DNA of 64,000 nucleotides, from positions 62,001 to 126,000 of the forward strand of contig JAEUUZ010000003.1 in assembly GCA_016786765.1 (NCBI GenBank), given 5' to 3'. The notes under the pieces were generated by a model, which saw only the letters and a program-made list of their open reading frames with translations, was not told where the DNA came from and searched no databases. How positions within the stretch are numbered: the first letter of the stretch is position 1; each line of letters begins with the position of its first letter. The position numbers and the translations under genes are program-made. Positions 37,929-52,978 of the stretch are shown here, piece after piece. The DNA comes from Chitinophagales bacterium (lineage in GTDB: Bacteria > Bacteroidota > Bacteroidia > Chitinophagales > LD1).

Positions 37929-38047
37929 GGCGCGAAGATACTCGGTTACGGATGGCTACCAAAAGTGTGGCAATATATTTGTTGTATTTTATTAAAATCG
38001 GGTTGGTTTTTATACGCGATTTGTATGTTTACAAAAAAATTAAAGAA

Positions 38048-38452
38048 ATGAACTTTATCATTAAGTTGTTTTTGAATGCTGTTGCTGTTGTGATTGCTTC
38101 GTATGCGTTGAGCGGAATTCATGTTGACGGTTTTGGGTATGCCGTTGCCATCGCCTTTGTGTTGGCTATTCTGAACGTAAGTTTAAAACCTATCTTGGTT
38201 TTATTCACTTTGCCTGCCACCATTCTTACACTAGGAATATTTTTGTTATTTATCAATGCCGCTATTATCAAAGTTGCGGCTTGGTTAATTGGTTCTCCCG
38301 GCTTTGTTGTTGATGGCTGGGGTTGGGCGATTTTGTTCAGCTTACTGCTTTCTATCTTAAACAGTGTTTTAGAAAAAGTGGTGAAACCGGCAATTGCTCC
38401 TAAAGAGAGCGACACAAAAGTATACGACAAAGACGGAAACCGCATCGCGTAA
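38048..38452 (+). CDS. Small membrane protein, phage-holin-4 / YvlD family
   Basis: Integral membrane protein of 134 aa with four hydrophobic segments. The pattern LNVSLKPILVLFTLPATILTLGIFLLFINA identifies the YvlD-type family, named after holins but normally a chromosomal housekeeping protein of unknown role. ATG 38048 begins the first transmembrane segment and is the credible start; the open frame upstream to 37952 would add a second hydrophobic stretch. The C-terminus is polar (KESDTKVYDKDGNRIA). Confidence 0.85.
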   Translation: MNFIIKLFLNAVAVVIASYALSGIHVDGFGYAVAIAFVLAILNVSLKPILVLFTLPATILTLGIFLLFINAAIIKVAAWLIGSPGFVVDGWGWAILFSLLLSILNSVLEKVVKPAIAPKESDTKVYDKDGNRIA

Positions 38453-38453
38453 A

Positions 38454-38521
38454 TCGCCCCTGCTGGCCCCCTTCCTTCCGGGCGAAACATAAGCGTGTTT
38501 CTTTCGAGCGAAGCGAGAAAG
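38454..38521. repeat. Pair of GC-rich inverted repeats between two genes
   Basis: TCGCCC (38454-38459) and GGGCGA (38480-38485) form one hairpin around a pyrimidine-rich loop; CTTTC (38501-38505) and GAAAG (38517-38521) form a second. The block starts right after the YvlD stop. It may act as a transcription end signal or be an intergenic repeat. Confidence 0.4.
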
Positions 38522-38601
38522 CGGAAATTTTTTTGGGGTAAATTAAACTGACATTTCTCGGCATGCCTTGCTGAAGTCCTTTATTTTTAATAGTTTTCTG
38601 C

Positions 38602-39951
38602 ATGACAACAAAACGAATTTTTTTGTTTGCCGGCTTGCTTTGGGGGCTTTATTTCCCTTTGCGCGCGCAACATTTTTCGTTCGATAAATTCTTTGATGCC
38701 AATAAAGATTTGTTTGATTCTATTGTTTCCAATAAAGAAAAATACAAGCTACAAATTCTCTACACACAAATTGATCGCAACGAAAAACAAGAACCTCGTT
38801 TTTCTACATATTCTTTTGATGCCGATAAATACTACTACTACTGTGCAAGTACCATAAAATTGCCGGCCGCTGTTTTTGCCCTAGAAAAGTTGAATAGCAT
38901 AAGTAAATATCACGTTACTAAAGAAGATTCTTTTTCAATCGAAAATTTATCGTGCGATAATCTGACTGATGAAAATTTGTCCATTAAAAAAAAGCGAACG
39001 TGTATAGATCAACTGATTAAGGAAATGTTGTTAGTAAGCAACAACTATGCTTTCAATCCGCTTTACGATTTTATAACACCAGAACTTTTCAATAAAAGAT
39101 TACACGAGCTAGGATACAAAAATGCTGTAGTGTGCAGACGATTTGCCGGTTGCGATTCTTTGGAAAATTTATTGACGAATCCAATTACCTTTTATGATTC
39201 TTTTTCGGTGCCGAAAATTAAACAAGACGTTGTTTCTGCTTATGACTTAAAAGGTTACTCCGGACCTCTTTCTCCTTTGGTTGGAAAAGGAAATATGAAA
39301 AGTGGACAATTTATAAATGCTCCTTTTAATTTTTCAAGATTCAATTATATACCGCTCTCTAACTTGCACGATCTACTGCAAAAAATTATTTTCCCGGATA
39401 CTGTTTCTAAAAAAATAAATCTTACACAATCCGATTATAAATCACTGATGAAATATATGGGTATGTTTCCTCGTGAATCTTTTTATCCGGAATATAACGG
39501 AGATACTTTTCCGGATAACTACATGAAATTTTTTATTGGTCTTGATAGTGGAGAAACACGCATGCCTTCTAATCTTCGTGTTTTTAATAAAGTTGGACAA
39601 GCCTATGGTTTTATCACCGATTGTGGATATGTGGAAGACACTGTGAATAAAGTTGAGTTTTTCTTATCTGCATCTATCTACGTAAACAAAAACGAAATTT
39701 TAAACGATGGTATTTATGAATATGATGCCATTGGTTTTCCTTTTCTTCATCAGCTATTCAATAAAATTTACGAAACTGAACTTTTGCGTAATCGTGCTGT
39801 TAAACCGAAATTCCGGAAATTTTATTTTGATGAACACTTCACTGAACCAAAGGAAGAAATAGAAGAAAAATTAGATACTGAAATTCCAACCATTCAACTC
39901 GAGGAGAAAAAAGGAAAGAAACACCGCAAAAAGAAAAACAGAAAAATATAA
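38602..39951 (+). CDS. Exported serine hydrolase of the class A beta-lactamase-like fold
   Basis: Predicted periplasmic protein of 449 aa with a signal peptide ending near FPLRAQ. Motifs of the penicillin-recognising fold appear in order: ASTIKLP (SxxK, about residue 94), VSNNYAF (S-x-N, about 148) and NKVGQAYG (K-x-G, about 332), so acyl-serine chemistry is likely. It differs from true beta-lactamases by extra length between motifs and by a basic C-terminal tail (KKGKKHRKKKNRK). Likely peptidoglycan-related or unknown ester/amide substrate. Codons are more AT-rich than in genes to the left. Confidence 0.75.
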   Translation: MTTKRIFLFAGLLWGLYFPLRAQHFSFDKFFDANKDLFDSIVSNKEKYKLQILYTQIDRNEKQEPRFSTYSFDADKYYYYCASTIKLPAAVFALEKLNSISKYHVTKEDSFSIENLSCDNLTDENLSIKKKRTCIDQLIKEMLLVSNNYAFNPLYDFITPELFNKRLHELGYKNAVVCRRFAGCDSLENLLTNPITFYDSFSVPKIKQDVVSAYDLKGYSGPLSPLVGKGNMKSGQFINAPFNFSRFNYIPLSNLHDLLQKIIFPDTVSKKINLTQSDYKSLMKYMGMFPRESFYPEYNGDTFPDNYMKFFIGLDSGETRMPSNLRVFNKVGQAYGFITDCGYVEDTVNKVEFFLSASIYVNKNEILNDGIYEYDAIGFPFLHQLFNKIYETELLRNRAVKPKFRKFYFDEHFTEPKEEIEEKLDTEIPTIQLEEKKGKKHRKKKNRKI

Positions 39952-39952
39952 A

Positions 39953-40591
39953 TTACTTCTTTTTGGCTAATAATGTTTCTCCATCAATTACAGTCATTCC
40001 TTTTTCTACTAATGGAACATAATCATGTGGAACAACAACTGTAACTTGTGATCCTAGTTTAATCAATCCAATCAAGTCACCAATTTTCTTTACTTGCTCC
40101 GGTTCAACAAAATCAACAATTCTTCTAGCTAAAAATCCTGAAATCTGCACGATCTTGAAATGTTCTCCGGAATTATCTTCCATCAAAATTTCATTGTGTT
40201 CATTTTCATAACGAATTCCTAAATCGTTACTCATCAAAATTGCATTGTTAAAATTGCCGGCTGTATGTTTATGAGAAACAATTTTGCCATCAACAGGCAT
40301 ACGCTGATAATGGACATGCGTAGGATTCATTTGAATGGAAATAATATATCCGGCTGTATCCACATCGGTTGTCCACAGGTGGATAACTCCATACTTTTCT
40401 TTGGTTACATCCATCCACTGCTTATCGAACTTTGTTATTGAAACCACTTCTCCGTTTGCAGGTGAAACAACAGTATTCGTTATCTGTGGTATGTTACGTT
40501 TCGGACAACGCAAAAACCAAACTCTGTAAAACGTTAGACAGAATAAAACAATAATAATAAGCAGTATGGCAATTTTCTTGAGCAACTTCAT
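39953..40591 (-). CDS. Phosphatidylserine decarboxylase family protein
   Basis: Membrane-anchored proenzyme of 212 aa like the short-form phosphatidylserine decarboxylase that makes phosphatidylethanolamine. An N-terminal transmembrane helix is followed by SPANGEVV, NPTHVHYQRMPVDG (His92, His94) and the self-cleavage site KLGSQVTVVVP (Gly180-Ser181, source of the pyruvoyl group). In the E. coli enzyme the PADG Asp90 belongs to the Asp-His-Ser triad; here it is Asn46. The gene also carries three DnaA-box-like sequences (40356-40386). No phosphatidylserine synthase gene is adjacent. Confidence 0.82.
   Translation of the reverse strand: MKLLKKIAILLIIIVLFCLTFYRVWFLRCPKRNIPQITNTVVSPANGEVVSITKFDKQWMDVTKEKYGVIHLWTTDVDTAGYIISIQMNPTHVHYQRMPVDGKIVSHKHTAGNFNNAILMSNDLGIRYENEHNEILMEDNSGEHFKIVQISGFLARRIVDFVEPEQVKKIGDLIGLIKLGSQVTVVVPHDYVPLVEKGMTVIDGETLLAKKK
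40356..40386. promoter_or_regulatory. Cluster of three DnaA-box-like 9-mers inside the psd-like gene
   Basis: GTATCCACA (40356-40364), TTGTCCACA (40369-40377) and, inverted and directly adjoining, GGTGGATAA (40378-40386). Each matches 8 of 9 positions of TTATCCACA or its complement. The cluster lies about 200 bp from the gene-free gap at 40592-41061. Confidence 0.5.
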
Positions 40592-41061
40592 TTTTTCTTT
40601 TTGATATGGTAAATGTAATCCGTAAAAAGGAATCTTTTAGCAAAGCCAAATTATTATTCGTCCACAATACTAATTTGTATTAAATAAGATTTTAAAAAAA
40701 TAGATATTCAAATACCATTATTAGGACTGTGGATTGTTGGATATTTTATTATTACTTACTCTTGTTTTTGTTGTTATCCAACTTCTATCTACAGAAATTC
40801 ACAAAAGAAATGTTTCTTGAAACATAGGTAAATAAAGGGTTTGATTTAGATACTAACATTTTGCTATTTTAGCTTTCCACAGCCTTCATTGTATATCTTC
40901 ATATTCACATTCCTGTTTTTTCTATGTGGAATAGTATACGCTTATAAACATGTATATTTTCCTTTTAGTAAGCTGTTATTTTTTTCATGTCACAAAAAAA
41001 ATATGTCCTAAATATATCCACAATATAAACAGACTATTAACAACCTTTTTGTGAACTTCTT
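40592..41061. other. Gene-free AT-rich gap, candidate replication origin (oriC)
   Basis: The only stretch above 300 bp without a gene in this window. It is roughly three-quarters A+T, has no plausible reading frame, and holds imperfect DnaA-box-like sequences: TCGTCCACA (40659), TGTGGATTG (40729, inverted), TTATCCAAC (40774), CTTTCCACA (40873) and ATATCCACA (41014, 8 of 9). It also holds the inverted repeat ATGTTTC-TT-GAAACAT (40810-40825) and many T/A runs that could unwind. Together with the box cluster at 40356-40386 and the parS-like sites from 42.3 kb, an origin is a reasonable proposal, not a demonstrated one. Confidence 0.45.
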
Positions 41062-41634
41062 TTACTTCTTGTAATAGTTGTTTTCTTGGATGTATTCCCA
41101 AACATTATTTGGCAGAAAATATTGAACAGACAAGCCTTCTTTTATTGCTTCTCTTATGAACGTTGCTGATATATCAAGCTGAGGAAATTGTAGGAAGTGA
41201 ATATTTTTACTTTCTGAATATGGGTTTGTTTCACGATTTCTATTGTAAACATATATTGAATAGTCTCGCAAAATTATATCGGCATTTTTCCATTTATGAA
41301 GCGAAGTAAGGTTATCGCCTCCCATGATTATTGAAAAGGTATGTTTTGGATATTTTTCTTTTAAATGTGTAAGAGTATCTATTGTATAAGATGGTTTTGG
41401 TAATACAAACTCAATATCTGATGCTCTGAAGTTTAGATTATTTTCAATAGCGAGTTTCACAAGGAACAATCTGTCGTGTTCTTTTAAAAGATTGTTTGCC
41501 TTCTTAAAAGGACTTTGTGGAGAAACTACAAACCAGATTTGTTTTAGACTTGTTTTTTGCAAAATCATATTTGCAATAATCAAATGCCCATTATGTATAG
41601 GATTAAACGATCCAAAAAATAAACCGATGTTCAT
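41062..41634 (-). CDS. nadD: Nicotinate-nucleotide adenylyltransferase
   Basis: Converts nicotinate mononucleotide and ATP to deamido-NAD (190 aa). Nucleotidyltransferase motif GSFNPIHNGHL at residues 8-18 and the C-terminal ISATFIREA match (H/S)xxSxIR-type NadD motifs. It starts one base after the corA stop, so the two are probably co-transcribed. The AT-rich gap lies immediately downstream. Confidence 0.95.
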   Translation of the reverse strand: MNIGLFFGSFNPIHNGHLIIANMILQKTSLKQIWFVVSPQSPFKKANNLLKEHDRLFLVKLAIENNLNFRASDIEFVLPKPSYTIDTLTHLKEKYPKHTFSIIMGGDNLTSLHKWKNADIILRDYSIYVYNRNRETNPYSESKNIHFLQFPQLDISATFIREAIKEGLSVQYFLPNNVWEYIQENNYYKK

Positions 41635-41635
41635 A

Positions 41636-42631
41636 TCAAAAGTATTTCTTGAATTTGAAGTAAACGAGTAATACGATTGCTACAATTCCCATACCTCCTA
41701 ACGTAAAAAAGTATCCCATCTTTGCATGTAGCTCTGGCATATTATCAAAGTTCATCCCATATACACCCGCAATAAAAGACAAAGGAATAAAAATAGAAGA
41801 CATGATTGTTAATGTCTTCATCACTTCATTCATCTTATTATTCGCTTGAGCATGATAAAGTTCAATTAAGCTATTTACGGATTCTTTATGTGTATCTAAA
41901 TTATCTAAAACTCTTAACAAATGATCTGTTAAATCGCGTAAATATACTTTGTTCTCTTTTTCAAAAAACTGAACATCGTTACGCATAATAGTATGCAAAA
42001 TATCATTTACCGGAGAAATCGATTTTCTGATTCTAAGAATATCTTTTCTCCATTTTAGTAATTGGAAAAGATGTAATTTTTTGGGATGATTGTTGATTAT
42101 GTTTTCGAATAACCCAATTTCTTTGTAGATAAATTCTTCGATTTCAAAATAACTGTCAATGATAACATCCAGTAAGCTATAGAGTAAATAGTCTTCACCT
42201 CGTTTTCTTATATTATTTCTATTGTCTACAATTTTTTGTTTAATCGGAAGTAAAACTTTAGTATCAGATTCTTCAAAACTGATTAGCACATTGTTTTTTA
42301 CAAATAGAGAAATTTGTTGCGATTTCATTTCCTTTTCTACGTGGAACATTTGTAGAACCACAAACAAAGAATCGCCATAATCATCAATTTTAGGACGTTG
42401 TACAGTGTGGAAAATATCCTCAACGGCTAATGGGTGAATCCCGAAATTTTTACAAAGCGACTGCACCTTTTGCTCTTCGGTTAAACCAAAAACATGGATC
42501 CAATATTTTTTTTCTGCATCAATTGTCTGTGTCCAATCCGAAATATTTTTTTCTACAAAGGAATCAGCAGCATATTCTATTACTTTCATTTTTGTCTGCT
42601 TTTCTATTAAGGGCGATGCTTTCAACTCCAT
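41636..42631 (-). CDS. corA: CorA family magnesium/cobalt transporter
   Basis: Pentameric inner-membrane divalent-cation channel (331 aa). A large cytoplasmic N-terminal domain is followed by two C-terminal transmembrane helices; the filter motif GMN is present in VYGMNFDNMPE, with helix two running GYFFTLGGMGIVAIVLLVYF and a basic KFKKYF end. A parS-like site (42333-42348) is embedded in its coding sequence. Confidence 0.95.
   Translation of the reverse strand: MELKASPLIEKQTKMKVIEYAADSFVEKNISDWTQTIDAEKKYWIHVFGLTEEQKVQSLCKNFGIHPLAVEDIFHTVQRPKIDDYGDSLFVVLQMFHVEKEMKSQQISLFVKNNVLISFEESDTKVLLPIKQKIVDNRNNIRKRGEDYLLYSLLDVIIDSYFEIEEFIYKEIGLFENIINNHPKKLHLFQLLKWRKDILRIRKSISPVNDILHTIMRNDVQFFEKENKVYLRDLTDHLLRVLDNLDTHKESVNSLIELYHAQANNKMNEVMKTLTIMSSIFIPLSFIAGVYGMNFDNMPELHAKMGYFFTLGGMGIVAIVLLVYFKFKKYF
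42333..42348. promoter_or_regulatory. parS-like palindrome 1 (in corA)
   Basis: TTTTCTACGTGGAACA matches TGTTCCACGTGGAACA at 14 of 16 positions. Confidence 0.5.
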
Positions 42632-42706
42632 CTTCAGAAACTGATCTTTTGATTACAACAGAAAGATAGTTTTTTCTTGTTATTTTACTTTGCAAAATAA
42701 TGAAGG

Positions 42707-43507
42707 ATGTATATCTCTAGCCTGCAAAATGCGCGAATAAAAGAAGTTAAGAAGCTTGAAAAAAGCTCTATACGAAAGGAAACCGGCACTTTTCTTTTAG
42801 AAGGATTGAGAGAAATTAATCTAGCCTTCCGTGCAGGATATTTTTTTGATAGTATTTTTATATGTCCTACACGCATAAAAGAAACAGACGTCTATAACTT
42901 GAAATTTATTGAGCAAATTAAAGACACTGTTTCTGTTTTCACTGTTACAGAGGATGTTTATTCCTCTGTCGCTTATCGCGAATCAACAGAAGGCGTTTTC
43001 GCAGTTACTCGAACAAAGGGACACACACTTGCTTCACTACAGCTATCCAATAATCCTCTTATATTAGTTATAGAAGGCGTTGAAAAACCAGGTAATTTTG
43101 GTGCTATGCTTCGCACTTGTGATGCCGTACATGCTGATGCCGTTATTATTTGCGATGCCAAGACAGATGTTTATAATGCCAATGTTATTCGATCAAGTGT
43201 AGGTACCGTTTTTACAAATCAGATTGCTGTTGATTCTACGTGGAACGTTATTCAATTTTTGAAAGAACAGAACATTAATACTTATGCTGCGTATTTAGAC
43301 ACGAATCAAGAGTATTACGCATCAAATTTTAACCAGCCAACGGCAATAGTTGTTGGTACTGAAGCAGAGGGTCTTTCGGAAGATTGGGTAAATGCCTCTA
43401 GCTATAAAATTAAAATACCGATGCTAGGAGAAATTGACTCTTTAAATGTTTCTGTTTCAGCGGCTGTTCTTTTGTATGAAGCATTGCGACAGAGGAAAAC
43501 AAAATAA
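42707..43507 (+). CDS. TrmH/SpoU family RNA 2'-O-methyltransferase (RlmB-like)
   Basis: SAM-dependent SPOUT methyltransferase acting on rRNA or tRNA ribose (266 aa). An N-terminal substrate-binding domain is followed by the SPOUT core with motif 1 EKPGNFGAMLRTCDA, motif 2 VVGTEAEGLS and motif 3 IPMLGEIDSLNVSVSAAVLL. Member of the RlmB/TsnR group; the exact nucleotide is not deducible. It carries a parS-like site at 43232-43247. Confidence 0.92.
   Translation: MYISSLQNARIKEVKKLEKSSIRKETGTFLLEGLREINLAFRAGYFFDSIFICPTRIKETDVYNLKFIEQIKDTVSVFTVTEDVYSSVAYRESTEGVFAVTRTKGHTLASLQLSNNPLILVIEGVEKPGNFGAMLRTCDAVHADAVIICDAKTDVYNANVIRSSVGTVFTNQIAVDSTWNVIQFLKEQNINTYAAYLDTNQEYYASNFNQPTAIVVGTEAEGLSEDWVNASSYKIKIPMLGEIDSLNVSVSAAVLLYEALRQRKTK
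43232..43247. promoter_or_regulatory. parS-like palindrome 2 (in the rlmB-like gene)
   Basis: GATTCTACGTGGAACG; the right half ACGTGGAAC is perfect and the left half has two mismatches to the core GTTCCACGTGGAAC. Confidence 0.4.
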
Positions 43508-43513
43508 AGTAGA

Positions 43514-44215
43514 ATGTTCCCATTTGTTATTCTTTTATTGTTTTTACAGCAAGATGCCAAGAAGCAAAAAGAACCTACGTCTATAACCAATGGTTACATT
43601 GCATTAAGAAACAGAGATGAAGTAAAGATTACTCCTTTGCTTGATACCTTAGTAGCTGAACAGGAATATGTTTTTGATATTTCTTTTAAAAGTAAGTATG
43701 TTTTTTCCGAATTGTTTTTGGATAAAGGCGTTGCTATTCGTACGGCAAATACTTTAACGATTAAGCCTGTCAACAAAACGAATAAGACGGACACTGCAAC
43801 CCTTCGCATTATTGGCTTTTCGAGTAACAATAGAATTTTATTGTATCATCAATTTATTATTGAACCAATTAAGAATTTGTATCCAAGGGTTGCAAAAAAG
43901 CATACACTGGTTCTCATGAGTAATAATGCATTGGAACGAAATTCAACTTACTCAAAAAGTATGTTTGTAAAAGATGCCTCCTTTGAATATTATGAAGAAG
44001 ATTTATCAGATTCTGTTATTGTAGACGGGTTGACACTTTCAATAGTAAATGGAAGCGTTCGAAAAAACCTCTATACCAAGAAGCCGATCCTTACAAAGGA
44101 AATGCATGATGAGATTAAATCACTCAAACAAAACGCAATGGCCTATGTTCGACTAGACGTGAAAGTTGGAAAGAAAAGAAAATCAACCTGGACAAGGTTT
44201 ACAATAAAACCGTAG
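43514..44215 (+). CDS. Predicted exported protein of unknown function (233 aa)
   Basis: Not recognised. A very short hydrophobic N-terminus (FPFVILLLFLQQ) may act as a signal peptide or anchor. The mature part looks beta-rich with a first Ig-like segment (DTATLRIIGFSS at about residue 95) and a second half containing KSMFVKDASFEYYEEDLSD. Lys-rich C-terminus. It starts six bases after the rlmB-like gene on the same strand and converges on hpt, so it is probably in an operon with the methyltransferase. Confidence 0.65.
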   Translation: MFPFVILLLFLQQDAKKQKEPTSITNGYIALRNRDEVKITPLLDTLVAEQEYVFDISFKSKYVFSELFLDKGVAIRTANTLTIKPVNKTNKTDTATLRIIGFSSNNRILLYHQFIIEPIKNLYPRVAKKHTLVLMSNNALERNSTYSKSMFVKDASFEYYEEDLSDSVIVDGLTLSIVNGSVRKNLYTKKPILTKEMHDEIKSLKQNAMAYVRLDVKVGKKRKSTWTRFTIKP

Positions 44216-44219
44216 TATT

Positions 44220-44768
44220 TTATTTTGCCAATACGTAAATGTCTTTTAGGTTTCTTCCTAATTCATTATAGTCCAAACCATAACCTACAATGAAATCGTT
44301 GGGAATTTCAAAACACTTATAATCCACGGAATAATTGCCTTTGAAGGCCTCAGGTTTAAATAACAAAGTAGCAATCTTTAACGACTTTGGGTTTTTTTCC
44401 TGAAATAGAGGTAACAATGCTTGAAGCGAGTGGCCACTGTCAACAATATCCTCCACAATTATAACATCGCGCCCTGTAATGGTATCGTTAGGTCCTAGTG
44501 TCACATTGAGATTCCCGGTACTTTGTGTTCCCGAATAGGAAGAAGATTTTATAAACGTTATTTCACAATCAATGGATATTGACCGCATTAAATCAGCAGC
44601 GAACATAAAAGAGCCGTTCATAATGGCTACCAACAAAGGTTTTTTTCCTTCGTAGTCTTTGCTCAATGCTACACCAAGCGCATTTACCTTATCTCCAATT
44701 GCAGAGGCGCTTAAATAAGGTTTAAAAGAAAGGTCGTGAAGCTGTACGAGAATTTGAGCGTTTTCCAT
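44220..44768 (-). CDS. hpt: Hypoxanthine phosphoribosyltransferase
   Basis: Purine salvage enzyme joining hypoxanthine or guanine to PRPP (182 aa). The PRPP-binding motif VIIVEDIVDSGHSL is intact, with the family motifs AIMNGSFMFAADL and KSSSYSGTQSTG. The ATG at 44768 was chosen; the TTG at 44777 forms part of the -7 promoter box AATATTTG (44775-44782). The ATG is six bases past that box and lies within a parS-like palindrome (44761-44776), so the message may be leaderless. Confidence 0.95.
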   Translation of the reverse strand: MENAQILVQLHDLSFKPYLSASAIGDKVNALGVALSKDYEGKKPLLVAIMNGSFMFAADLMRSISIDCEITFIKSSSYSGTQSTGNLNVTLGPNDTITGRDVIIVEDIVDSGHSLQALLPLFQEKNPKSLKIATLLFKPEAFKGNYSVDYKCFEIPNDFIVGYGLDYNELGRNLKDIYVLAK

Positions 44769-44776
44769 GTGGAACA
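44761..44776. promoter_or_regulatory. parS-like palindrome 3 (at the hpt start)
   Basis: TTTTCCATGTGGAACA, 14 of 16 to TGTTCCACGTGGAACA. It spans the hpt start codon and touches the -7 box, so any bound ParB would overlap the hpt promoter. Confidence 0.45.
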
Positions 44777-44820
44777 AATATTTCCGCTAATTTCTAAAAA
44801 CAATTAGGTATTCAAAAATA

Positions 44821-45453
44821 TTATTTTTTTATGTCCGAGAATAGCTTTTCGAATTTATCTACCTTAGACTTTACAACGTACTGACAATAGGGTTGTTGTT
44901 TGTTTTGATTGTAGTAATTTTGATGATATTCTTCTGCTTTATAGAATACCTCAAAGGGTGACACTTCGGTTACAATAGGGTCAGTGTACACTTTTTCTTC
45001 TGTTAGTTTTTTGATAGCGTTTAGTGTAGCTTCTTTTTGATTTTCATTTCTAAAAAACACAACAGACCTGTATTGTGTTCCTTCATCAGCACCTTGTTTG
45101 TTAAGTGTAGTTGGGTCATGAATTGTAAAATAAACAGCAAGAATTTTTCCAAGCGAAGTTTCCTTTTTGTCAAAAACTATCTGTACAACTTCTGCATGAC
45201 CGGTTGTTCCGTTACACACCTCTCTATATGCTGGGTTCTTTATAAAACCACCACTGAATCCTGATTCTGAAGAAACAACACCTTTCATTCTTTGAAACAC
45301 AGCTTCCATGCACCAATAGCATCCTCCACCTAATGTAATCGTGTCTAATTCCTGTGTTCCCATATTATGTTCTGCTTTTGTGGTTTCTTTTTTTGTTTGA
45401 GCACTACACGAACCTAAAAGCGCTATCGATAATAGAAAAAGTAATTTTTTCAT
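44821..45453 (-). CDS. msrA: Peptide-methionine (S)-S-oxide reductase, lipoprotein form
   Basis: Repairs oxidised methionine in proteins (210 aa). Catalytic Cys lies in LGGGCYWCMEAVFQ, with GTTGHAEVVQI and PTTLNKQGADEGTQYRS typical of MsrA; the fusion partner MsrB is absent. The signal peptide with lipobox LLGSC (Cys16) places it in the envelope. Catalytic CYWC replaces the common CFWC. Next to the LysM glucosaminidase (34 bp upstream on the same strand). Confidence 0.94.
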   Translation of the reverse strand: MKKLLFLLSIALLGSCSAQTKKETTKAEHNMGTQELDTITLGGGCYWCMEAVFQRMKGVVSSESGFSGGFIKNPAYREVCNGTTGHAEVVQIVFDKKETSLGKILAVYFTIHDPTTLNKQGADEGTQYRSVVFFRNENQKEATLNAIKKLTEEKVYTDPIVTEVSPFEVFYKAEEYHQNYYNQNKQQPYCQYVVKSKVDKFEKLFSDIKK

Positions 45454-45487
45454 ATGTGTTTTTTAGAAATCTTTTTCTTTAGATTCT

Positions 45488-46510
45488 CTATTCTTTTAGC
45501 TTAATTTTTTGACCAATAGCTAAGTTCTCAGTCGTCAGTCTGTTTATGTTTTTAATTTCCGCAATCGTCATGTTGTGCTCTTTGGCAATTGTGTATAGCG
45601 ACTCTCCCTTCTTAACAATATGATAAGCTGTTTTGTTCATTGGGGCAGAGGTTTCGCACAAAGCAATAGTTTCGTCTTTGATTAACAAACGATCTTCTTT
45701 ATCTCCATTATAGCGTAAGAGTGCCGCCAATTGTACACCTAATTTTTGTGAAAGCAAACGGTATGTGATTGTTTCAGTAACTGTATAGGAACAATTATTG
45801 CCTTTTGTTCTTTTCGGTTCGATGAATAAAACATCTCCTTTTTTAAAAGAAAGCCGCACATCTGCATCATTAAAAAGATAAAGATTAGATGTGCTTATCC
45901 CACAACAATTACAAAAGTTTTCAATGGGCAAACTATCGTTGTAAATAATAGCTCTAGTTCCATTAATTATACATTGTGTTCCACATGGAACAGCGTTGCT
46001 CAAAGCCGTTAGTGTGTCTAGCTGAAACAATTTATATCGTTCTATTATTCCGATTAATACTTCCGGGTATTTTGGATTTGTTGCATAGCCGGCTTTTTTT
46101 AAACCGTATGCCCAACTGCTATAATCCGTTTTTGATAAATTGAATAAGGGTTTATACCAACCCCGAGAAAGCAGAAATTGAGAGTGATCTCTATACGACT
46201 CTTCCGGGTTTTCATAAACTCTAAAACACTCTTGCGGTGCATCGTCATCATGATGATATCCATTGCCTTTCCAATCTTTATGACATTTTATACCAAAATG
46301 ATTATTTGAGTTTACAGCTAATTTTGATTTACCTGCTGTGGACTCATGAATTCCTTGAGCAATGGTAATACTTGCAGGTATACCAAACTTTACCATTTCT
46401 TCAATAGCAATAGCTTTATATTTTTCTATATATGCACGAATGTCTTCATCGCGCTGTGCATATATAAACTGCGGTAATACTAAAAGAAGGAATAGATAAT
46501 ATTTTTTCAC
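45488..46510 (-). CDS. Glucosaminidase domain protein with C-terminal LysM
   Basis: Exported peptidoglycan hydrolase of about 340 aa. A signal peptide (YLFLLLVLPQFIYAQ) leads to a mannosyl-glycoprotein endo-beta-N-acetylglucosaminidase domain (about 20-170) with the catalytic Glu in AQGIHESTAGKS and NNHFGIKCH; the C-terminus (about 295-340) is a LysM repeat (HIVKKGESLYTIAKEHNMT). A middle region resembles a degenerate second LysM. The GTG at 46510 begins right after the preceding gene's stop (46515) and directly precedes the signal peptide, so it is preferred to upstream in-frame starts. Confidence 0.88.
   Translation of the reverse strand: MKKYYLFLLLVLPQFIYAQRDEDIRAYIEKYKAIAIEEMVKFGIPASITIAQGIHESTAGKSKLAVNSNNHFGIKCHKDWKGNGYHHDDDAPQECFRVYENPEESYRDHSQFLLSRGWYKPLFNLSKTDYSSWAYGLKKAGYATNPKYPEVLIGIIERYKLFQLDTLTALSNAVPCGTQCIINGTRAIIYNDSLPIENFCNCCGISTSNLYLFNDADVRLSFKKGDVLFIEPKRTKGNNCSYTVTETITYRLLSQKLGVQLAALLRYNGDKEDRLLIKDETIALCETSAPMNKTAYHIVKKGESLYTIAKEHNMTIAEIKNINRLTTENLAIGQKIKLKE
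45977..45992. promoter_or_regulatory. parS-like palindrome 4 (in the glucosaminidase gene)
   Basis: TGTTCCACATGGAACA, 15 of 16 to TGTTCCACGTGGAACA; both half-sites are perfect. Confidence 0.5.
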
Positions 46511-46514
46511 CAAT

Positions 46515-47144
46515 TTATTTTTTTCGTGCAATTGAAATTCCATCTCGAATCGGAAGTATGACAACTTCAAGCTCCGGATGGTTTAAAACGGCTATATTAA
46601 AGTTATGGATGGCTAGCGTGTCGCTATCCATTATTGCAGCGGCTACTTTCCCTTTCCATAACACATTGTCTGTTATTAACAGCGCACCGGAATTCATTTT
46701 TGGAATAAGAATGTTTAAATAATCAATGTATTTCTTCTTATCTGCATCTAAGAATATTAAATCGAAACTATCAGAAATTGTGGGAATCACTGAAATGGCA
46801 TTACCTATTATATATTCAGTTCTACGTGAAACATTGGCTTTTTCAAAAAAAGATTTTACATGCTCTTCCAATTCACTATTTATATCGATAGTATATAATT
46901 TTCCGCTTTCTTGTAATCCGGAGTGTAGACAAATTGTTGCATATCCTGTAAATGTTCCAACTTCTAATATTACACGGGGCTGTTTAATTTTCGAAATCAT
47001 TGAAAGTATTTGTCCTTGCAACTTTCCACTTATCATGTGGGGCATCTGTACTTTCAAATAAGTAAATCGCTCTACTTCGTCCAATACACTTTGTAAGGGA
47101 GAAGACTGTGCTATGCAATAATTTTCAATATCTGGATTATTCAT
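46515..47144 (-). CDS. SAM-dependent O-methyltransferase (caffeoyl-CoA / TrmR-like family)
   Basis: Class I methyltransferase of 209 aa. SAM-binding motif ILEVGTFTGYATICL, acidic loop YTIDINSE, metal-binding DLIFLDADKKKY and ITDNVLWKGKV match the cation-dependent O-methyltransferase family, in which bacterial members methylate small catechols or tRNA (TrmR). Overlaps the gamma-carbonic-anhydrase gene by 8 bp. Contains a parS-like site. Confidence 0.92.
   Translation of the reverse strand: MNNPDIENYCIAQSSPLQSVLDEVERFTYLKVQMPHMISGKLQGQILSMISKIKQPRVILEVGTFTGYATICLHSGLQESGKLYTIDINSELEEHVKSFFEKANVSRRTEYIIGNAISVIPTISDSFDLIFLDADKKKYIDYLNILIPKMNSGALLITDNVLWKGKVAAAIMDSDTLAIHNFNIAVLNHPELEVVILPIRDGISIARKK
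46818..46833. promoter_or_regulatory. parS-like palindrome 5 (in the O-methyltransferase gene)
   Basis: AGTTCTACGTGAAACA, 13 of 16 to TGTTCCACGTGGAACA; its right half GTGAAACA is the canonical parS form. Confidence 0.35.
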
Positions 47145-47658
47145 TCTCTTTAAACCAACTTGCGTACATCACATAATTATTTCCTATTCGCTCAATCAAA
47201 TGCTTAAAGTTTTTTTCATCCATTTCCTTTATTTTTTTTGCAGGCACACCCGCATATATGGAATTACTCTCTAATACCATATTCTCGGTAACTACACTTC
47301 CTGCACCAATAATTACATTTTTATTCACTACAACATTATCCATTACAATTGCGCCCATACCAATTAATACGTTGTCGTGTATAGTACACCCATGAACAAT
47401 TGCCCTATGCCCAATCGAAACAAAGTTTCCGATGTTAAGCGGTGCTGTTTGGTAGGTGCAGTGTAATACAGCCGCATCTTGTATGTTTACCTTGTTTCCG
47501 ATGTTTATGTAATGTACATCACCTCTAACAATAGCGTTAAACCAAACACTACAGTCGTCTCCCATTGTAACCTCTCCAACAACGGTTGCGTTTTCTGCAA
47601 GAAAACAGTTTGCTCCAAAGACCGGACTTTTTCCTCTTACCTTTTTAATTAGTGCCAT
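47137..47658 (-). CDS. Gamma-carbonic anhydrase family protein
   Basis: Trimeric left-handed beta-helix protein of 173 aa built from hexapeptide repeats. Family hallmarks: SVWFNAIVRGDVHYINIG, and the zinc His in DAAVLHCT, SIGHRAIVHGCTI. Homologues show carbonic anhydrase or carnitine-related acyl activities, or none. Overlaps the O-methyltransferase by 8 bp and is one base from the lipoprotein gene upstream; all belong to one minus-strand run. Confidence 0.93.
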   Translation of the reverse strand: MALIKKVRGKSPVFGANCFLAENATVVGEVTMGDDCSVWFNAIVRGDVHYINIGNKVNIQDAAVLHCTYQTAPLNIGNFVSIGHRAIVHGCTIHDNVLIGMGAIVMDNVVVNKNVIIGAGSVVTENMVLESNSIYAGVPAKKIKEMDEKNFKHLIERIGNNYVMYASWFKENE

Positions 47659-49302
47659 TTATCTGCTATTGGTGAAGTTTTTCTTTTCTTTTGCTGTTGA
47701 CAGTTTTTCAGTATTGTTTTTAGGGTTTATTTCTGCTTCAATATCCCATCCGCTTTTAATACTTACGGTCGACTTAAGTACTACCTTTTTTTCCGGTTGA
47801 ATTTTTTGCTCAAAATTTCCGCTGTCCCAGTAACCGTTTTTGTTATCATCAAAAGTTCCTACAATACTATAGTTACCGGCCGCAATACCATCAAATCTTA
47901 TTTGTTTTTGCAAAGGAGATAAATATTTTTTTGCTACAGTTTCGTCTTTTTCGTTTTTGATTTCAATAATTAGAAAGCTGCTATCAGTCTCACTAAGCTT
48001 GAGTATTAAATTTCCGGTTTCCATTTCTTTCGGGCATGAAAAAGAAAACGATTCTCCTTTTGAGTAATGGCCAAATATGTCTTTAATGCATGAGTCTCCC
48101 AATAGGACGATATACTTACTTCCTGTTTTTTTCACAAAAGAAAAGTGTATACGATTCTCCTCAAATTTTAGGAAAGAAGCTCTTGTCTCTATTGTTTTTG
48201 TTGAGTCTTCGGTAATCGATATTTTTGTCGGGTCAATTTTTTCAATCGGGTTACTTAGTGTAACGATAAATAATGATTGTGGTGCAATACCTATGATACC
48301 TCTCCCCTTTTTAAAACTTAGCGAATCTTTATTGCTTTGGTTTTTAATCTTTAATAGTGTTGTACTATCGTTAATTACCAGTCCTAAATCTATGCTATCC
48401 GGACTAGCATTTTTATACCAGTAAAATAACGTGTCTCTTGTTTCGTTTAGTGTGGCAAACTCTATATCATTTTTGGGCGAAGCGGTTACGCTTACTTTTT
48501 CTATGGGATGCGAGAAAGCTACATCTAATTTATTTCCACGTGGAACGTAGCTTTCAACAATTTTACCTTTTGGCGAAGGAAACAAATTCAATTTTAGATT
48601 ATTGATTGTGTCTTGTAGAAAAATAATGGAATCTAAAAACCCACTAATTCCATCACCTCGATCAAATAACCGATTCATGTTTTTGTCTTCAAATGCAGCA
48701 ACAATATACCGTCCCTTCTTAATGTTTCTTAAACTAAAAAGCCCTTCTTTGTTGGTGTTTGTAAAATAGAAGGGTTTGCTGTAGTCGGTGTTTTCCGGAT
48801 ACAAACCCACCATTACGTTTTCAACGGGCTTCATATCGTTTAGAGAAATACTTGAGCCACTTAAAACACAAACGTCTAAACTATCACCTGTTGAAAAACA
48901 GAAACTGAAATCTTGAATGGGATTTCCTTCGTTAATGTCCTTTATGGTGTTGCCAAACATTATACTGTAGGTAATGTTACTGTCAAGTGATTTTGGAAGA
49001 TCAACAAAAATCTTTTTCCCCTCCACAAAGAATTTAGCTGCCGGTTTCATTTCCGGAGTTACTTGGATCTGAGCAACATTTAAACTGTAATTCACAAACT
49101 CATCAAACTTCAGCACTATTTTTTTTGCCCTAAAATTTCTTGTTTCATTCGCGGGATAACTAGCTACAAGTTTCGGAGGAGTTGTATCTTTTGTTCCTCC
49201 TGTAGGTGCAATCTCATTTGCACAATTCGACAAGAAAAGCAATAGAAAAAAAGTAATGGACGAAAGAAAATATTTCACTATGTGCAAACGTACTTTTTTC
49301 AT
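47659..49302 (-). CDS. Ig-like domain lipoprotein (SbsA/Big_5-type)
   Basis: Envelope lipoprotein of 547 aa (lipobox FLSNC). After APTGGTKDTTPPKLVASYPA comes a bacterial Ig-like domain (about 35-135; KIVLKFDEFVN, FSFCFSTGD), then a carboxypeptidase-regulatory-like segment (GLFSLRNIKKGRYIVAAFED) and repeats of similar strands with Asp-rich loops (DKNMNRLFD, DDNKNGYWD) that may bind calcium. A common Bacteroidota protein of unknown role. Contains a parS-like site at 48532-48547. Confidence 0.88.
   Translation of the reverse strand: MKKVRLHIVKYFLSSITFFLLLFLSNCANEIAPTGGTKDTTPPKLVASYPANETRNFRAKKIVLKFDEFVNYSLNVAQIQVTPEMKPAAKFFVEGKKIFVDLPKSLDSNITYSIMFGNTIKDINEGNPIQDFSFCFSTGDSLDVCVLSGSSISLNDMKPVENVMVGLYPENTDYSKPFYFTNTNKEGLFSLRNIKKGRYIVAAFEDKNMNRLFDRGDGISGFLDSIIFLQDTINNLKLNLFPSPKGKIVESYVPRGNKLDVAFSHPIEKVSVTASPKNDIEFATLNETRDTLFYWYKNASPDSIDLGLVINDSTTLLKIKNQSNKDSLSFKKGRGIIGIAPQSLFIVTLSNPIEKIDPTKISITEDSTKTIETRASFLKFEENRIHFSFVKKTGSKYIVLLGDSCIKDIFGHYSKGESFSFSCPKEMETGNLILKLSETDSSFLIIEIKNEKDETVAKKYLSPLQKQIRFDGIAAGNYSIVGTFDDNKNGYWDSGNFEQKIQPEKKVVLKSTVSIKSGWDIEAEINPKNNTEKLSTAKEKKNFTNSR
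48532..48547. promoter_or_regulatory. parS-like palindrome 6 (in the Ig-like lipoprotein gene)
   Basis: ATTTCCACGTGGAACG; the central 12 bases TTCCACGTGGAA form a perfect palindrome. Confidence 0.5.
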
Positions 49303-49307
49303 TGATA

Positions 49308-51173
49308 TTATAATCTACCCAAACGAACCATTAACACTTGCACATCTGCCGGAGAAACGCCACTTATTCTACTCGCTTGACCCAAAGTTTCCGGTCTTAG
49401 TTTAGCCAATTTTTGTCGAGCTTCGATAGATAAAGATTTAAGATCGCTATAGTCAAAATCAGGATTAAGGCGAATGTCTTCTAATCGTAACATCTTATCG
49501 GCTAGCTCTACCTCTTTCTGTATATAGCTTTCATACTTCATTTCTATTTCAGCCGATTCAAATATTTCATTATCAAACTGTTGTCTCATTTCGTGAAGCG
49601 GCAAAACCCCCTTCTCCAACAAGGCTATATCTACATTCGGACGAGCCAAAACTTTCTCTAGTTTCAACTTTTGTTTTAATTCTGCACTATTCACGGAGGC
49701 TAAAACACCGTTCAGTTCTTCTGGAGAAACGCTATACTCTTTGAAGAATTTTTTCAATTCATTCATTCCCGCTACTTTTTGATCCAGTCGCTTTAATCTA
49801 TCTTCTTCTGCTAAGCCAAGCTTATGGCTTTTTTCGGTTAAACGTATATCTGCATTATCTTGGCGAAGTAATATTCTGTACTCCGCTCGAGAGGTAAACA
49901 TACGATAAGGCTCTTCAGTTCCTTTTGTTATAAGATCATCAATCAATACACCGATATAGGCCTCGTTTCTTTGTAAGGTGAAGGCCTCTTTGTGCTTCGC
50001 ATTTTGATGTGCATTGATTCCTGCCATTAACCCCTGACAAGCAGCCTCCTCATATCCTGTTGTTCCGTTGATCTGACCTGCAAAGAAAAGGTTCTTTATC
50101 AGCTTTGTTTCGAGCGTGTTTTTTAATTGCGTAGGCGGAAAATAGTCGTATTCTATGGCATAACCCGGACGAAACATTTTCATGTTTTCAAAGCCCGGAA
50201 CTGCCCTTAAAGCTCTATGCTGAATATCTTCAGGTAGTGAAGTGGAAAATCCGTTTACATATATCTCTACTGTGTTCCATCCCTCTGGCTCTATGAATAA
50301 TTGATGCGAATCCTTATCGGCAAAGCGATCAATTTTGTCTTCTACAGAAGGACAATACCTTGGCCCTAACCCTTTAATTCTCCCTGAAAACATAGGCGAC
50401 TTATCGAACCCTTCACGAAGAATATCGTGTACACCCTGATGTGTATGTGTAATCCAACAACAAAGTTGTTTTTCCGGCTTTGGAAGATTTTTGTACGAGA
50501 AACCAACAACATCTACATCCCCTTCCTGGCGTTCCATCTTTGTGTAGTCTAAACTTCTCCCGTCAATACGAGGAGGCGTTCCGGTTTTCATTCTACCGGC
50601 TTCAAACCCTAACGTTACAAGTTGCTCCGTTAGCCCATATGCCGCCTTTTCTCCTGCTCGTCCCCCACCAAAGTTTTTCTCACCAATATGTATTAATCCA
50701 TTTAAAAAGGTTCCATTGGTTAACACTACAGCTTTTGCTCTTATGTCTATACCCATGGAGGTTTTAACCCCAACAACTTGGTTGTTTTCAATCAAAAGGT
50801 TGGTTATCGTATCTTGCCAGAAATCCAAATTAGGCGTTTTTTCTAACATCGAGCGCCATTCCCCAGCAAACAACATACGGTCGTTTTGTGTTCTTGGGCT
50901 CCACATTGCTGGCCCTTTCGATCGATTCAGCATTCTAAACTGAACCATGCTTCTGTCCGAAACAATACCGGAATAGCCACCCATGGCGTCAATTTCTCTC
51001 ACAATTTGACCTTTTGCAATACCACCCATTGCCGGATTACAGCTCATTTGCCCTATGGTTTGCATATTCATGGTAATCAACAATGTGGAAGATCCCATAT
51101 TTGCTGCCGCTGCTGCTGCTTCACAACCCGCATGCCCCGCACCCACTACAATAACATCGTATTCTCTAAACAT
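49308..51173 (-). CDS. mnmG: tRNA uridine 5-carboxymethylaminomethyl modification enzyme MnmG (GidA)
   Basis: FAD-dependent enzyme that with MnmE modifies the tRNA wobble uridine (621 aa). FAD-binding VVGAGHAGCEAA at the N-terminus, CNPAMGGIAKG, MKTGTPPRIDGRSLD and the C-terminal FTSRAEYRILLRQDNAD are all intact. ATG 51173 (MFREYDVIVVG) is the correct start; the in-frame ATG at 51230 would translate the parS-like palindromes. In many bacteria this gene lies near oriC. mnmE is not in the window. Confidence 0.97.
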   Translation of the reverse strand: MFREYDVIVVGAGHAGCEAAAAAANMGSSTLLITMNMQTIGQMSCNPAMGGIAKGQIVREIDAMGGYSGIVSDRSMVQFRMLNRSKGPAMWSPRTQNDRMLFAGEWRSMLEKTPNLDFWQDTITNLLIENNQVVGVKTSMGIDIRAKAVVLTNGTFLNGLIHIGEKNFGGGRAGEKAAYGLTEQLVTLGFEAGRMKTGTPPRIDGRSLDYTKMERQEGDVDVVGFSYKNLPKPEKQLCCWITHTHQGVHDILREGFDKSPMFSGRIKGLGPRYCPSVEDKIDRFADKDSHQLFIEPEGWNTVEIYVNGFSTSLPEDIQHRALRAVPGFENMKMFRPGYAIEYDYFPPTQLKNTLETKLIKNLFFAGQINGTTGYEEAACQGLMAGINAHQNAKHKEAFTLQRNEAYIGVLIDDLITKGTEEPYRMFTSRAEYRILLRQDNADIRLTEKSHKLGLAEEDRLKRLDQKVAGMNELKKFFKEYSVSPEELNGVLASVNSAELKQKLKLEKVLARPNVDIALLEKGVLPLHEMRQQFDNEIFESAEIEMKYESYIQKEVELADKMLRLEDIRLNPDFDYSDLKSLSIEARQKLAKLRPETLGQASRISGVSPADVQVLMVRLGRL

Positions 51174-51204
51174 AGCGCAAAGGTAATCAAATACTTTTAT
51201 TGAG

Positions 51205-51220
51205 CGTTCCACGTGGAACG
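51205..51220. promoter_or_regulatory. parS-like palindrome 7, perfect 16-bp palindrome
   Basis: CGTTCCACGTGGAACG, fully self-complementary, with the complete core GTTCCACGTGGAAC. It lies in the mnmG/umuC intergenic region. Confidence 0.65.
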
Positions 51221-51230
51221 TTATGCGCAT

Positions 51231-51246
51231 AGTTCCACGTGGAACT
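51231..51246. promoter_or_regulatory. parS-like palindrome 8, perfect 16-bp palindrome
   Basis: AGTTCCACGTGGAACT, fully self-complementary, centred 26 bp from site 7. The pair fills the 87-bp mnmG-umuC gap. Confidence 0.65.
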
Positions 51247-51260
51247 ATGAAAGAGTGTCG

Positions 51261-52544
51261 TTATTTTGCCCTTTTTCCGATACGGGGAAGGTCTTTCCAC
51301 TTGGTGGTATATTCCGGAGAACGTTCTTCACAACGCGTTTTCCAATCTTGAGTCAGTCCTACAGAAGCAAACTTTACGGTATCGCGCCCCAGTTTTCGGT
51401 TTAGCATATCCATGGTTTTATTGAGTTTTACAACTTGTGGATTAGCTTCAACCGTGTCGAATAAATTTTTCTGAATGGCATTCTCGGGAACTAGCATAAA
51501 CAAACAAACGCCAGCCTTCTTGTACGCTACTCCGGACTGAAAGCCTTTTTCAGTAAGTTTTTGGGCTTCTAAAATAAGTTCATTTGTGTTTGCTGTTGCC
51601 GAAGAAAGGATAGAAAACTGCGTGTTTTTGTGATAAGGTATAGCATAATCGAACTTGTCGGAACGGAAAAATACTTGTATGGCCCCGGCAGCAGACTCTT
51701 GTAGACGAAGTTTTTCAGCTGCGCGTGCGGTATATGTGGCTATAGCCTCTTTTAAATCTGAAAGCGTGGTTACCGGTTTCCCAAAAGAGCGTGTACTGGC
51801 AATCATCTTTTTTATCTCAAGCCCCTCTCCTAATTCAATGCAGGGAATGCCGTTCAGTTCGTTGATTAGTCGAACGCCAACTACACCCCCAAGGTGTTTT
51901 TTTGCCCAAGCGGTATCCTTTTTCGAGAGTTTGAGGGCGGTATCTATACCCCAAAAGCGTAGTTTCTTGCTGTTATTTCGACCTACACCCCATATGTCTT
52001 CAATAGCAGTGTTGTCAAGCGCTTCGTTAATTTCGTCTACATCGCTGAGGATGAATACGCCATTGTGCTTTGCCTTTTGCTTTTTACAGATACGATTAGC
52101 TACTTTTGCGAGCGTTTTTGTTGCCGCAATACCAATGGAAACCGGTATTCCCGTCCATTGAAATACGGTGTCTTTTACCGTAGTTGCGTAATTTTTAAGG
52201 CAATTTGTAGGAATACTTTGCAGGTCTAAAAAGGCTTCATCTACAGAATATACTTCTATTTCTGGGTTGAAATAGAGCAAGGTTTCCATAACGCGTCTTG
52301 AAAGATCTCCATAAAGCGCATAATTGGAAGAGCAAACGGTGATGTTTTTGGCTTTAATTTCATCTTTCGCTTTAAAAAACGGGCCGCCCATAACTATTCC
52401 AAGTCGTTTAGCTTCATCATTTCGCGCAATAATACAGCCATCGTTATTCGACAAAACAACAATAGGTTTTCCTTTCCAATCGGGTCGGAAAACCTGTTCG
52501 CAGGAAGCGTAAAAACTGTTGCAGTCAACAATGGCTTTCATCAA
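51261..52544 (-). CDS. umuC: Y-family DNA polymerase, UmuC-like (Pol V catalytic subunit)
   Basis: Error-prone translesion polymerase of 427 aa. Palm motifs VDCNSFYASCEQVF (first Asp) and VYSVDEAFLDL (catalytic Asp-Glu) are intact; IEDIWGVGRNNSKKLRFWG is the helix-hairpin-helix thumb and the C-terminus contains the UmuC-specific DUF4113-like segment (FASVGLTQDWKTRCEERSP). Its start overlaps the umuD-like stop by four bases, so the two are translationally coupled, as in the umuDC/SOS mutagenesis system. Confidence 0.94.
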   Translation of the reverse strand: MMKAIVDCNSFYASCEQVFRPDWKGKPIVVLSNNDGCIIARNDEAKRLGIVMGGPFFKAKDEIKAKNITVCSSNYALYGDLSRRVMETLLYFNPEIEVYSVDEAFLDLQSIPTNCLKNYATTVKDTVFQWTGIPVSIGIAATKTLAKVANRICKKQKAKHNGVFILSDVDEINEALDNTAIEDIWGVGRNNSKKLRFWGIDTALKLSKKDTAWAKKHLGGVVGVRLINELNGIPCIELGEGLEIKKMIASTRSFGKPVTTLSDLKEAIATYTARAAEKLRLQESAAGAIQVFFRSDKFDYAIPYHKNTQFSILSSATANTNELILEAQKLTEKGFQSGVAYKKAGVCLFMLVPENAIQKNLFDTVEANPQVVKLNKTMDMLNRKLGRDTVKFASVGLTQDWKTRCEERSPEYTTKWKDLPRIGKRAK

Positions 52545-52978
52545 AAAGTGTTTGCGCCAGCCAAAACATCATGAATAACAAATGTAACAACCCCCCAATG
52601 TTCAAAAACAATCGGTTTTTTCGCTTTCTGCTGCAAATAGAAAAGAGAAATGTTGTTCCCGAGCTTCACAAAGCGATCCAAAACAAATTCATTTTCATAA
52701 CAAGCCACCACAATGCAACTATGAAAAGGCGAAATCGAACGATCAATCACCAACAAATCGTTTTTCAAAACATTTAAGAATTTGAAATCGTCATTTTCAA
52801 CTTTCATAAAAAAAGTAGAAGGCGTATTTTTTACCATCAGTTCATGTAAATTCAAAATTTTGTCGGAATAATCATCTGATGCGGCCGGAAATCCACTCGG
52901 AATTAACCGTGAATCGCGCTTTTTTGTTAAAAACAAGCTGGATTTAGATACAGATTGAAATGATATAGGCAATTCCAT
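52541..52978 (-). CDS. UmuD-like protein lacking the Ser-Lys autocleavage dyad
   Basis: LexA/UmuD-fold protein of 145 aa, partner of the downstream UmuC. The fold is recognisable from SGFPAASDDYSDK, LNLHELMVKNTPSTFFMKV, LKNDLLVIDRSISP and VTFVIHDVLAG. Aligned by eye to E. coli UmuD, the nucleophile Ser60 (GDSM) falls on Asp64 (NDDF), the base Lys97 falls on Asp101 (FVLDRF), and the cleavage bond Cys-Gly is Ser28-Gly29. It should therefore not self-cleave in the usual way and may act permanently as a UmuC cofactor. ATGA overlap with umuC. Confidence 0.85.
   Translation of the reverse strand: MELPISFQSVSKSSLFLTKKRDSRLIPSGFPAASDDYSDKILNLHELMVKNTPSTFFMKVENDDFKFLNVLKNDLLVIDRSISPFHSCIVVACYENEFVLDRFVKLGNNISLFYLQQKAKKPIVFEHWGVVTFVIHDVLAGANTF

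Follow-up and report, generated by a model that had tools for sequence, protein, structure and literature searches.

A 470 bp gap between psd and nadD in the genome of an uncultured Chitinophagales (Bacteroidota) bacterium raises the question of whether this locus is the chromosomal replication origin, oriC. The gap lies in a stretch of 64,000 nucleotides that was analysed as a whole ("the window"; positions 62001-126000 of contig C6), in a 3.62-Mb genome assembled in 66 contigs; contig C6 has a length of 491 kb, of which 446 kb were examined. The original prediction described the gap as gene-free and roughly 75% A+T and placed mnmG 8 kb away, and the locus proves to be so arranged:

39953-40591, minus strand: psd, phosphatidylserine decarboxylase family (PF02666), predicted to carry part of the origin
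40592-41061, no strand: candidate oriC intergenic region, nadD-psd gap, 470 bp, 74% A+T
41062-41634, minus strand: nadD, the gap's other neighbour (TIGR00482)
49308-51230, minus strand: mnmG (gidA), origin-region marker gene (TIGR00136, E 1e-252)

The psd product matches the NCBIfam Psd models, but under their curated cut-offs. The locus lies in a low-G+C island (window positions 38000-50000; 31-36% G+C vs. ~40% around it) that spans the putative origin and most of the parS cluster described below.

The gap contains the following DnaA boxes and box-like 9-mers:

40658-40666, plus strand: DnaA box TCGTCCACA, on the far margin of the A+T block, with TCATCCACA at the equivalent place in the congener G017
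40728-40736, minus strand: DnaA box CAATCCACA, next to the DnaA-trios; the box followed by TAATAA is kept in relatives
40736-40744, minus strand: weaker tandem DnaA box ATATCCAAC, assigned by sequence
40873-40881, plus strand: DnaA-box-like CTTTCCACA, from the scan for TCCACA cores
40925-40933, minus strand: DnaA-box-like TATTCCACA, from the scan for TCCACA cores
41014-41022, plus strand: DnaA box ATATCCACA, matching the E. coli consensus at 8 of 9 positions and conserved in G017

The results indicate that the gap has five TCCACA cores, vs. a mean of 0.17 in shuffled sequence, with none of 2000 shuffles reaching five, and that each of the 39 other gaps of at least 150 bp in the 446 kb of contig examined has at most one. 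Extended to 40346-41061, the region has seven TCCACA sites, a higher density than anywhere else in the 446 kb. (The scan for box clusters covered this 446 kb of the 3.62-Mb genome and 20 kb around dnaA.) The five gap boxes of the original prediction, one of them matching at 8 of 9 positions (ATATCCACA, 41014-41022), are thus present at a density far above that of every other gap on the contig. Its reservation that several boxes are imperfect is correct, in that the remaining gap boxes are poorer matches to the E. coli consensus, yet they share the TCCACA core of the lineage, in which the DnaA box is roughly [CT][TA]ATCCACA. Over the whole window, 9-mers within one mismatch of the E. coli box show no enrichment beyond chance (22 vs. 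17 expected); the exact sequence TTATCCACA forms no clusters anywhere in the genome (G000) and is depleted genome-wide to about half the level of a reversed control (30 vs. 58). Because the exact sequence is both depleted and unclustered, the E. coli consensus is of little use for finding boxes in this genome. Two more box-like 9-mers, ATATCCACA and TTATTCACA (minus strand), occur at window positions 39622-39650, inside a beta-lactamase-family gene that faces the end of psd.

The box cluster is conserved among relatives. A psd gene could be located in 26 family genomes, and also in named Bacteroidetes and Chitinophagales bins; 21 orthologous gaps, including those of 20 relatives, were compared, each upstream of psd or of psd together with a "cdsA-like" gene (a provisional name, given without a family search, for a gene of ~260 residues). 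In an unbiased k-mer test over the 21 gaps, the top-enriched 7-mer was ATCCACA, with 57 occurrences vs. 1.4 expected and at least one in every gap. The sequence TGTCAACA is present in 15 of 21 gaps (0.5 expected; for example L096, 8685-9183, and L098, 9457-9994), and ACATCGC in 12 of 21 (0.6 expected); judged by this recurrence, both are further conserved motifs of the putative origin. Alignment reveals one element that every gap shares, made up of a DnaA box (or a 9-mer resembling one), a few bases, CTAATAA or CTAGTAA, and an A+T-rich stretch. The box is often two boxes in tandem (the tandem pair is TATCCAACAATTCACAG in L108 and, in g2 relatives, TATCTAACAATTCACAG), and TTAATACA often follows the A+T-rich stretch. 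In the window the core reads ATATCCAACAATCCACAGTCCTAATAATGGTATTTGAATATC on the minus strand and comprises:

40662-40714, no strand: probable DNA unwinding element, an A+T-rich block and the best-conserved noncoding stretch
40672-40744, minus strand: core unwinding element (BUS-like), with tandem DnaA boxes, spacer, DnaA-trios and A+T-rich stretch; matches model R1
40715-40724, minus strand: CTAATAATGG, with two canonical DnaA-trios (TAA TAA) past the spacer, in (nearly) invariant columns in A3

Identity to the congener G017 is 80-88% over most of 40662-40741, where A+T content reaches 88%. In a basal unwinding system (BUS), the parts occur in the order DnaA boxes, spacer, trios (PMC8287927; PMC6669920), with a DnaA box or tandem pair, a spacer of up to 16 bp, and trios on the same strand (PMC8287927). 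The locus has this layout, and the A+T-rich unwinding element to be expected beside the boxes of an oriC is present at 40662-40714. The published BUS search wants at least three consecutive NAN trios (PMC8287927). The tract in the window, TAA TAA TGG, has two strict trios, which counts against the locus as an oriC; several relatives have three or four.

An origin is also expected to lie near a minimum of cumulative GC skew. Over the 446 kb examined, the raw cumulative skew has its minimum as a broad plateau at ~85-185 kb, and the skew at fourfold sites has its minimum at ~77-130 kb and bottoms out at 87 kb, which is 16 kb left of the candidate. The candidate, at 102.6-103.1 kb of C6, falls inside both minima, in keeping with the original prediction, and the V shape of the skew was reached with a frequency of only 0.0002 upon shuffling genes. 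The genome being in 66 contigs, the minimum is that of contig C6 alone, which, like its breadth, counts against the oriC reading, as does the corrected skew minimum of the relative G018, which lies 28 kb from the gap. The original prediction had raised the objection that minus-strand genes predominate to the right. They do, and we count this against the candidate; as an argument from leading-strand bias, however, the objection is answered, because gene-strand bias does not follow the skew on this contig. Its minimum is at 190 kb of the contig, and we rejected it as an origin marker.

To extend the analysis beyond the genus, we used a sequence-only model of the core, R1, trained on 12 sequences from other genera, without this genus. 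R1 matches the window at 40672-40744, with 21.3 bits (20.3 bits in a whole-genome search). The genome has one other match of similar score, at C59:140848-140890 (L228; 21.1 bits). We set it aside as probably a chance match: it covers only 43 bp, and there is no box core within 500 bp of it. The score of just 20-21 bits for the element itself, and the similar score on C59, would nonetheless count against the oriC reading. Over the order, 206 of 298 genomes have an R1 match with an E value of 0.1 or lower, vs. ~30 expected by chance. In two near-complete genomes of another family of the order, the position of the match could be set against the skew, and in both it falls at a GC-skew flip. In G040, every sample between 0 and 1.3 Mb has negative raw skew, the samples between 1.4 and 2.6 Mb have positive skew, and the sign changes back near 2.7-2.8 Mb, ~1.4 Mb from the flip; the R1 match is at 1,330,410-1,330,477, at the flip, in a gap with six TCCACA cores and 17 kb from parS. 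In G299, the skew is -0.027 at 870-880 kb and +0.106 at 880-890 kb, a local turn; the R1 match is at 882 kb, and far from 882 kb the skew is noisy.

Clusters of boxes alone are no proof of initiation, and the skew minimum of contig C6 is broad; the locus might accordingly be read as a datA- or DARS-like site that titrates or reactivates DnaA close to an oriC that itself lies elsewhere in the region. We regard this as very unlikely, given the tandem-box, spacer, trio and A+T-block layout of the locus, the presence of the same element at the skew flips of G040 and G299, and the absence of any other comparable cluster on the 446 kb.

The reading as oriC is further favoured by parS, which is expected near the origin in a ParABS genome and is found here. 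Sites with up to two mismatches to TGTTCCACGTGGAACA number seven genome-wide, and five of the seven are in the window, at 42333-51246, 1-10 kb to the right of the gap, in a parS cluster that is unique genome-wide. The first of them starts 1.27 kb from the gap, as the 1.3 kb of the original prediction implied:

42333-42348, no strand: parS-like TTTTCTACGTGGAACA, the first site
44761-44776, no strand: parS-like TTTTCCATGTGGAACA, up to two mismatches
45977-45992, no strand: parS-like TGTTCCACATGGAACA, up to two mismatches
46818-46833, no strand: weaker parS-like AGTTCTACGTGAAACA, three mismatches
48532-48547, no strand: weaker parS-like ATTTCCACGTGGAACG, three mismatches
51205-51246, no strand: parS pair GTTCCACGTGGAAC, at the start of mnmG

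Next to mnmG, directly after the strongest parS pair, comes a umuC/umuD-like translesion polymerase pair (window positions 51261-52978). The genome has one ParB gene, on contig C3. Also on another contig than the candidate is dnaA (C49:32176-33576), in agreement with the statement in the original prediction that no dnaA is near. Since dnaA is usually origin-linked in bacteria, the origin might be sought beside dnaA on C49; the 20 kb around dnaA, however, lacks both a box cluster (no 500 bp holds more than two cores) and a parS-like site, and we rejected C49 as the origin contig, with next to no probability left to it.

The association of the core with parS is general. In six of eight members of the family tested, parS is 3-32 kb from psd. 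Two apparent exceptions in the family, G025 and G002, have the core away from psd and ~4 kb from a parS pair (core at 143.6 kb and parS at 147.5 kb in G025; core at 185.4 kb and parS at 189.1 kb in G002). Among 22 well-matched genomes of other families, which were picked for high scores and are mostly in few contigs, parS-type matches occur in 19, and for 17 of these the nearest is within ~18 kb of the R1 match; in the other two (G126 and G255) the sole parS-type match is single and weak. In near-complete genomes, the core is 2-18 kb from parS. The genes beside the element vary over the family: genus g1 and some members of g2 have nadD there, g3 has other genes, and in g2 the cdsA-like gene lies between the element and psd. 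In G005, a box cluster (L215; C128, 19402-20000) is less than 1 kb from a parS pair and psd is on a different contig, as if the origin had perhaps been moved or rebuilt. The gap lies upstream of psd and thus probably includes the psd promoter, but that it is nothing other than a promoter or regulatory region of psd, with TGTGGA repeats bound by a transcription factor, is scarcely credible, inasmuch as the element stays with parS over the family while the neighbouring genes change, the core motif is the DnaA box, and a search of 40592-41061 against Rfam found no RNA family.

We conclude that 40592-41061, together with the boxes in psd described below, is very probably the chromosomal oriC of this Chitinophagales bacterium. 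The interpretation put forward in the original prediction is supported by box density, by the skew plateau, by the unique parS cluster, by the conservation of boxes and core, and by the skew flips in relatives.

The steps of initiation that go beyond these sequence features are taken from the cited work on B. subtilis; by analogy, we infer the following. DnaA would bind the cluster of lineage-type boxes (near [CT][TA]ATCCACA), including the tandem pair at 40728-40744, would pass from the tandem pair onto the same-strand TAATAA trios (40718-40723), and would open the A+T-rich block at 40662-40714. The helicase would be loaded at the opened block, and two forks would start. ParB, bound to the parS cluster at the right, would then segregate the new origins.

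The predicted origin resembles the BUS-type oriC of Bacillus subtilis (incC) in having, on one strand, tandem boxes, a short spacer, trio repeats (5'-TAA/TAG) and an A+T-rich stretch, and in having an additional, more distant box cluster (PMC6669920; PMC8287927). It differs in that it is not beside dnaA or dnaN, in that the box consensus is relaxed to [CT][TA]ATCCACA, in that this genus has just two strict trios, and in that some boxes are inside the psd coding sequence. Like oriC of Escherichia coli (gidA/mnmG-mioC), it is apart from dnaA and has mnmG (gidA) in its vicinity; unlike oriC of E. coli, it is 8 kb from mnmG and has parS sites nearby. E. coli is not known to have a chromosomal ParB-parS system. 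As in the parS clusters of ParABS systems, palindromes near TGTTCCACGTGGAACA are grouped near the origin and there is a single ParB gene, but here several sites are degenerate by 1-3 bases and parB is on another contig. A literature search for papers on oriC in Chitinophagales found none. The kind of origin, an ordinary bacterial oriC, is known; what is new is its location and composition in this lineage, and the boxes in coding sequence.

The boxes in coding sequence are the three at 40356-40386 that the original prediction placed at the border of the gap, correctly describing each as matching at 8 of 9 positions and the last two as inverted and abutting. All three are inside psd, a point that it did not make:

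40356-40364, plus strand: DnaA box GTATCCACA in the psd coding sequence, 8 of 9; codons 76-78, with high synonymous identity
40369-40377, plus strand: DnaA box TTGTCCACA in the psd coding sequence, 8 of 9; at the peak of synonymous constraint
40378-40386, minus strand: DnaA box TTATCCACC in psd, 8 of 9; inverted, abutting TTGTCCACA, and seen in this genus only

Across 18 psd genes from three genera, synonymous identity peaks at codons 71-77 (0.91 vs. a gene mean of 0.49), which are exactly the boxes GTATCCACA and TTGTCCACA. At position 74, the codon is ACA in 17 of 18 threonines, vs. 27% of threonine codons elsewhere in psd, and at position 77 it is GTG in 18 of 23 valines; kinship inflates these counts, and they should be judged against the remainder of psd. 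Neither G002, in which psd is off the parS contig, nor genus g3 has kept the TTGTCCACA box. The codon pattern supports an origin that would extend into psd, where the boxes may make up a second patch that binds DnaA and assists in its recruitment. It is possible, though we advance it tentatively, that the origin is a two-part one, with the second patch kept in the psd coding sequence by selection on silent codon positions, and that this could let origin-bound DnaA control membrane-lipid synthesis, or could tie initiation to membrane-lipid synthesis.

The boxes in psd appear to be a clear example of silent positions in a gene being constrained by origin sequence. The conserved core would provide an order-wide marker with which to find origins in metagenome bins and draft genomes, in which dnaA is no guide to their position.
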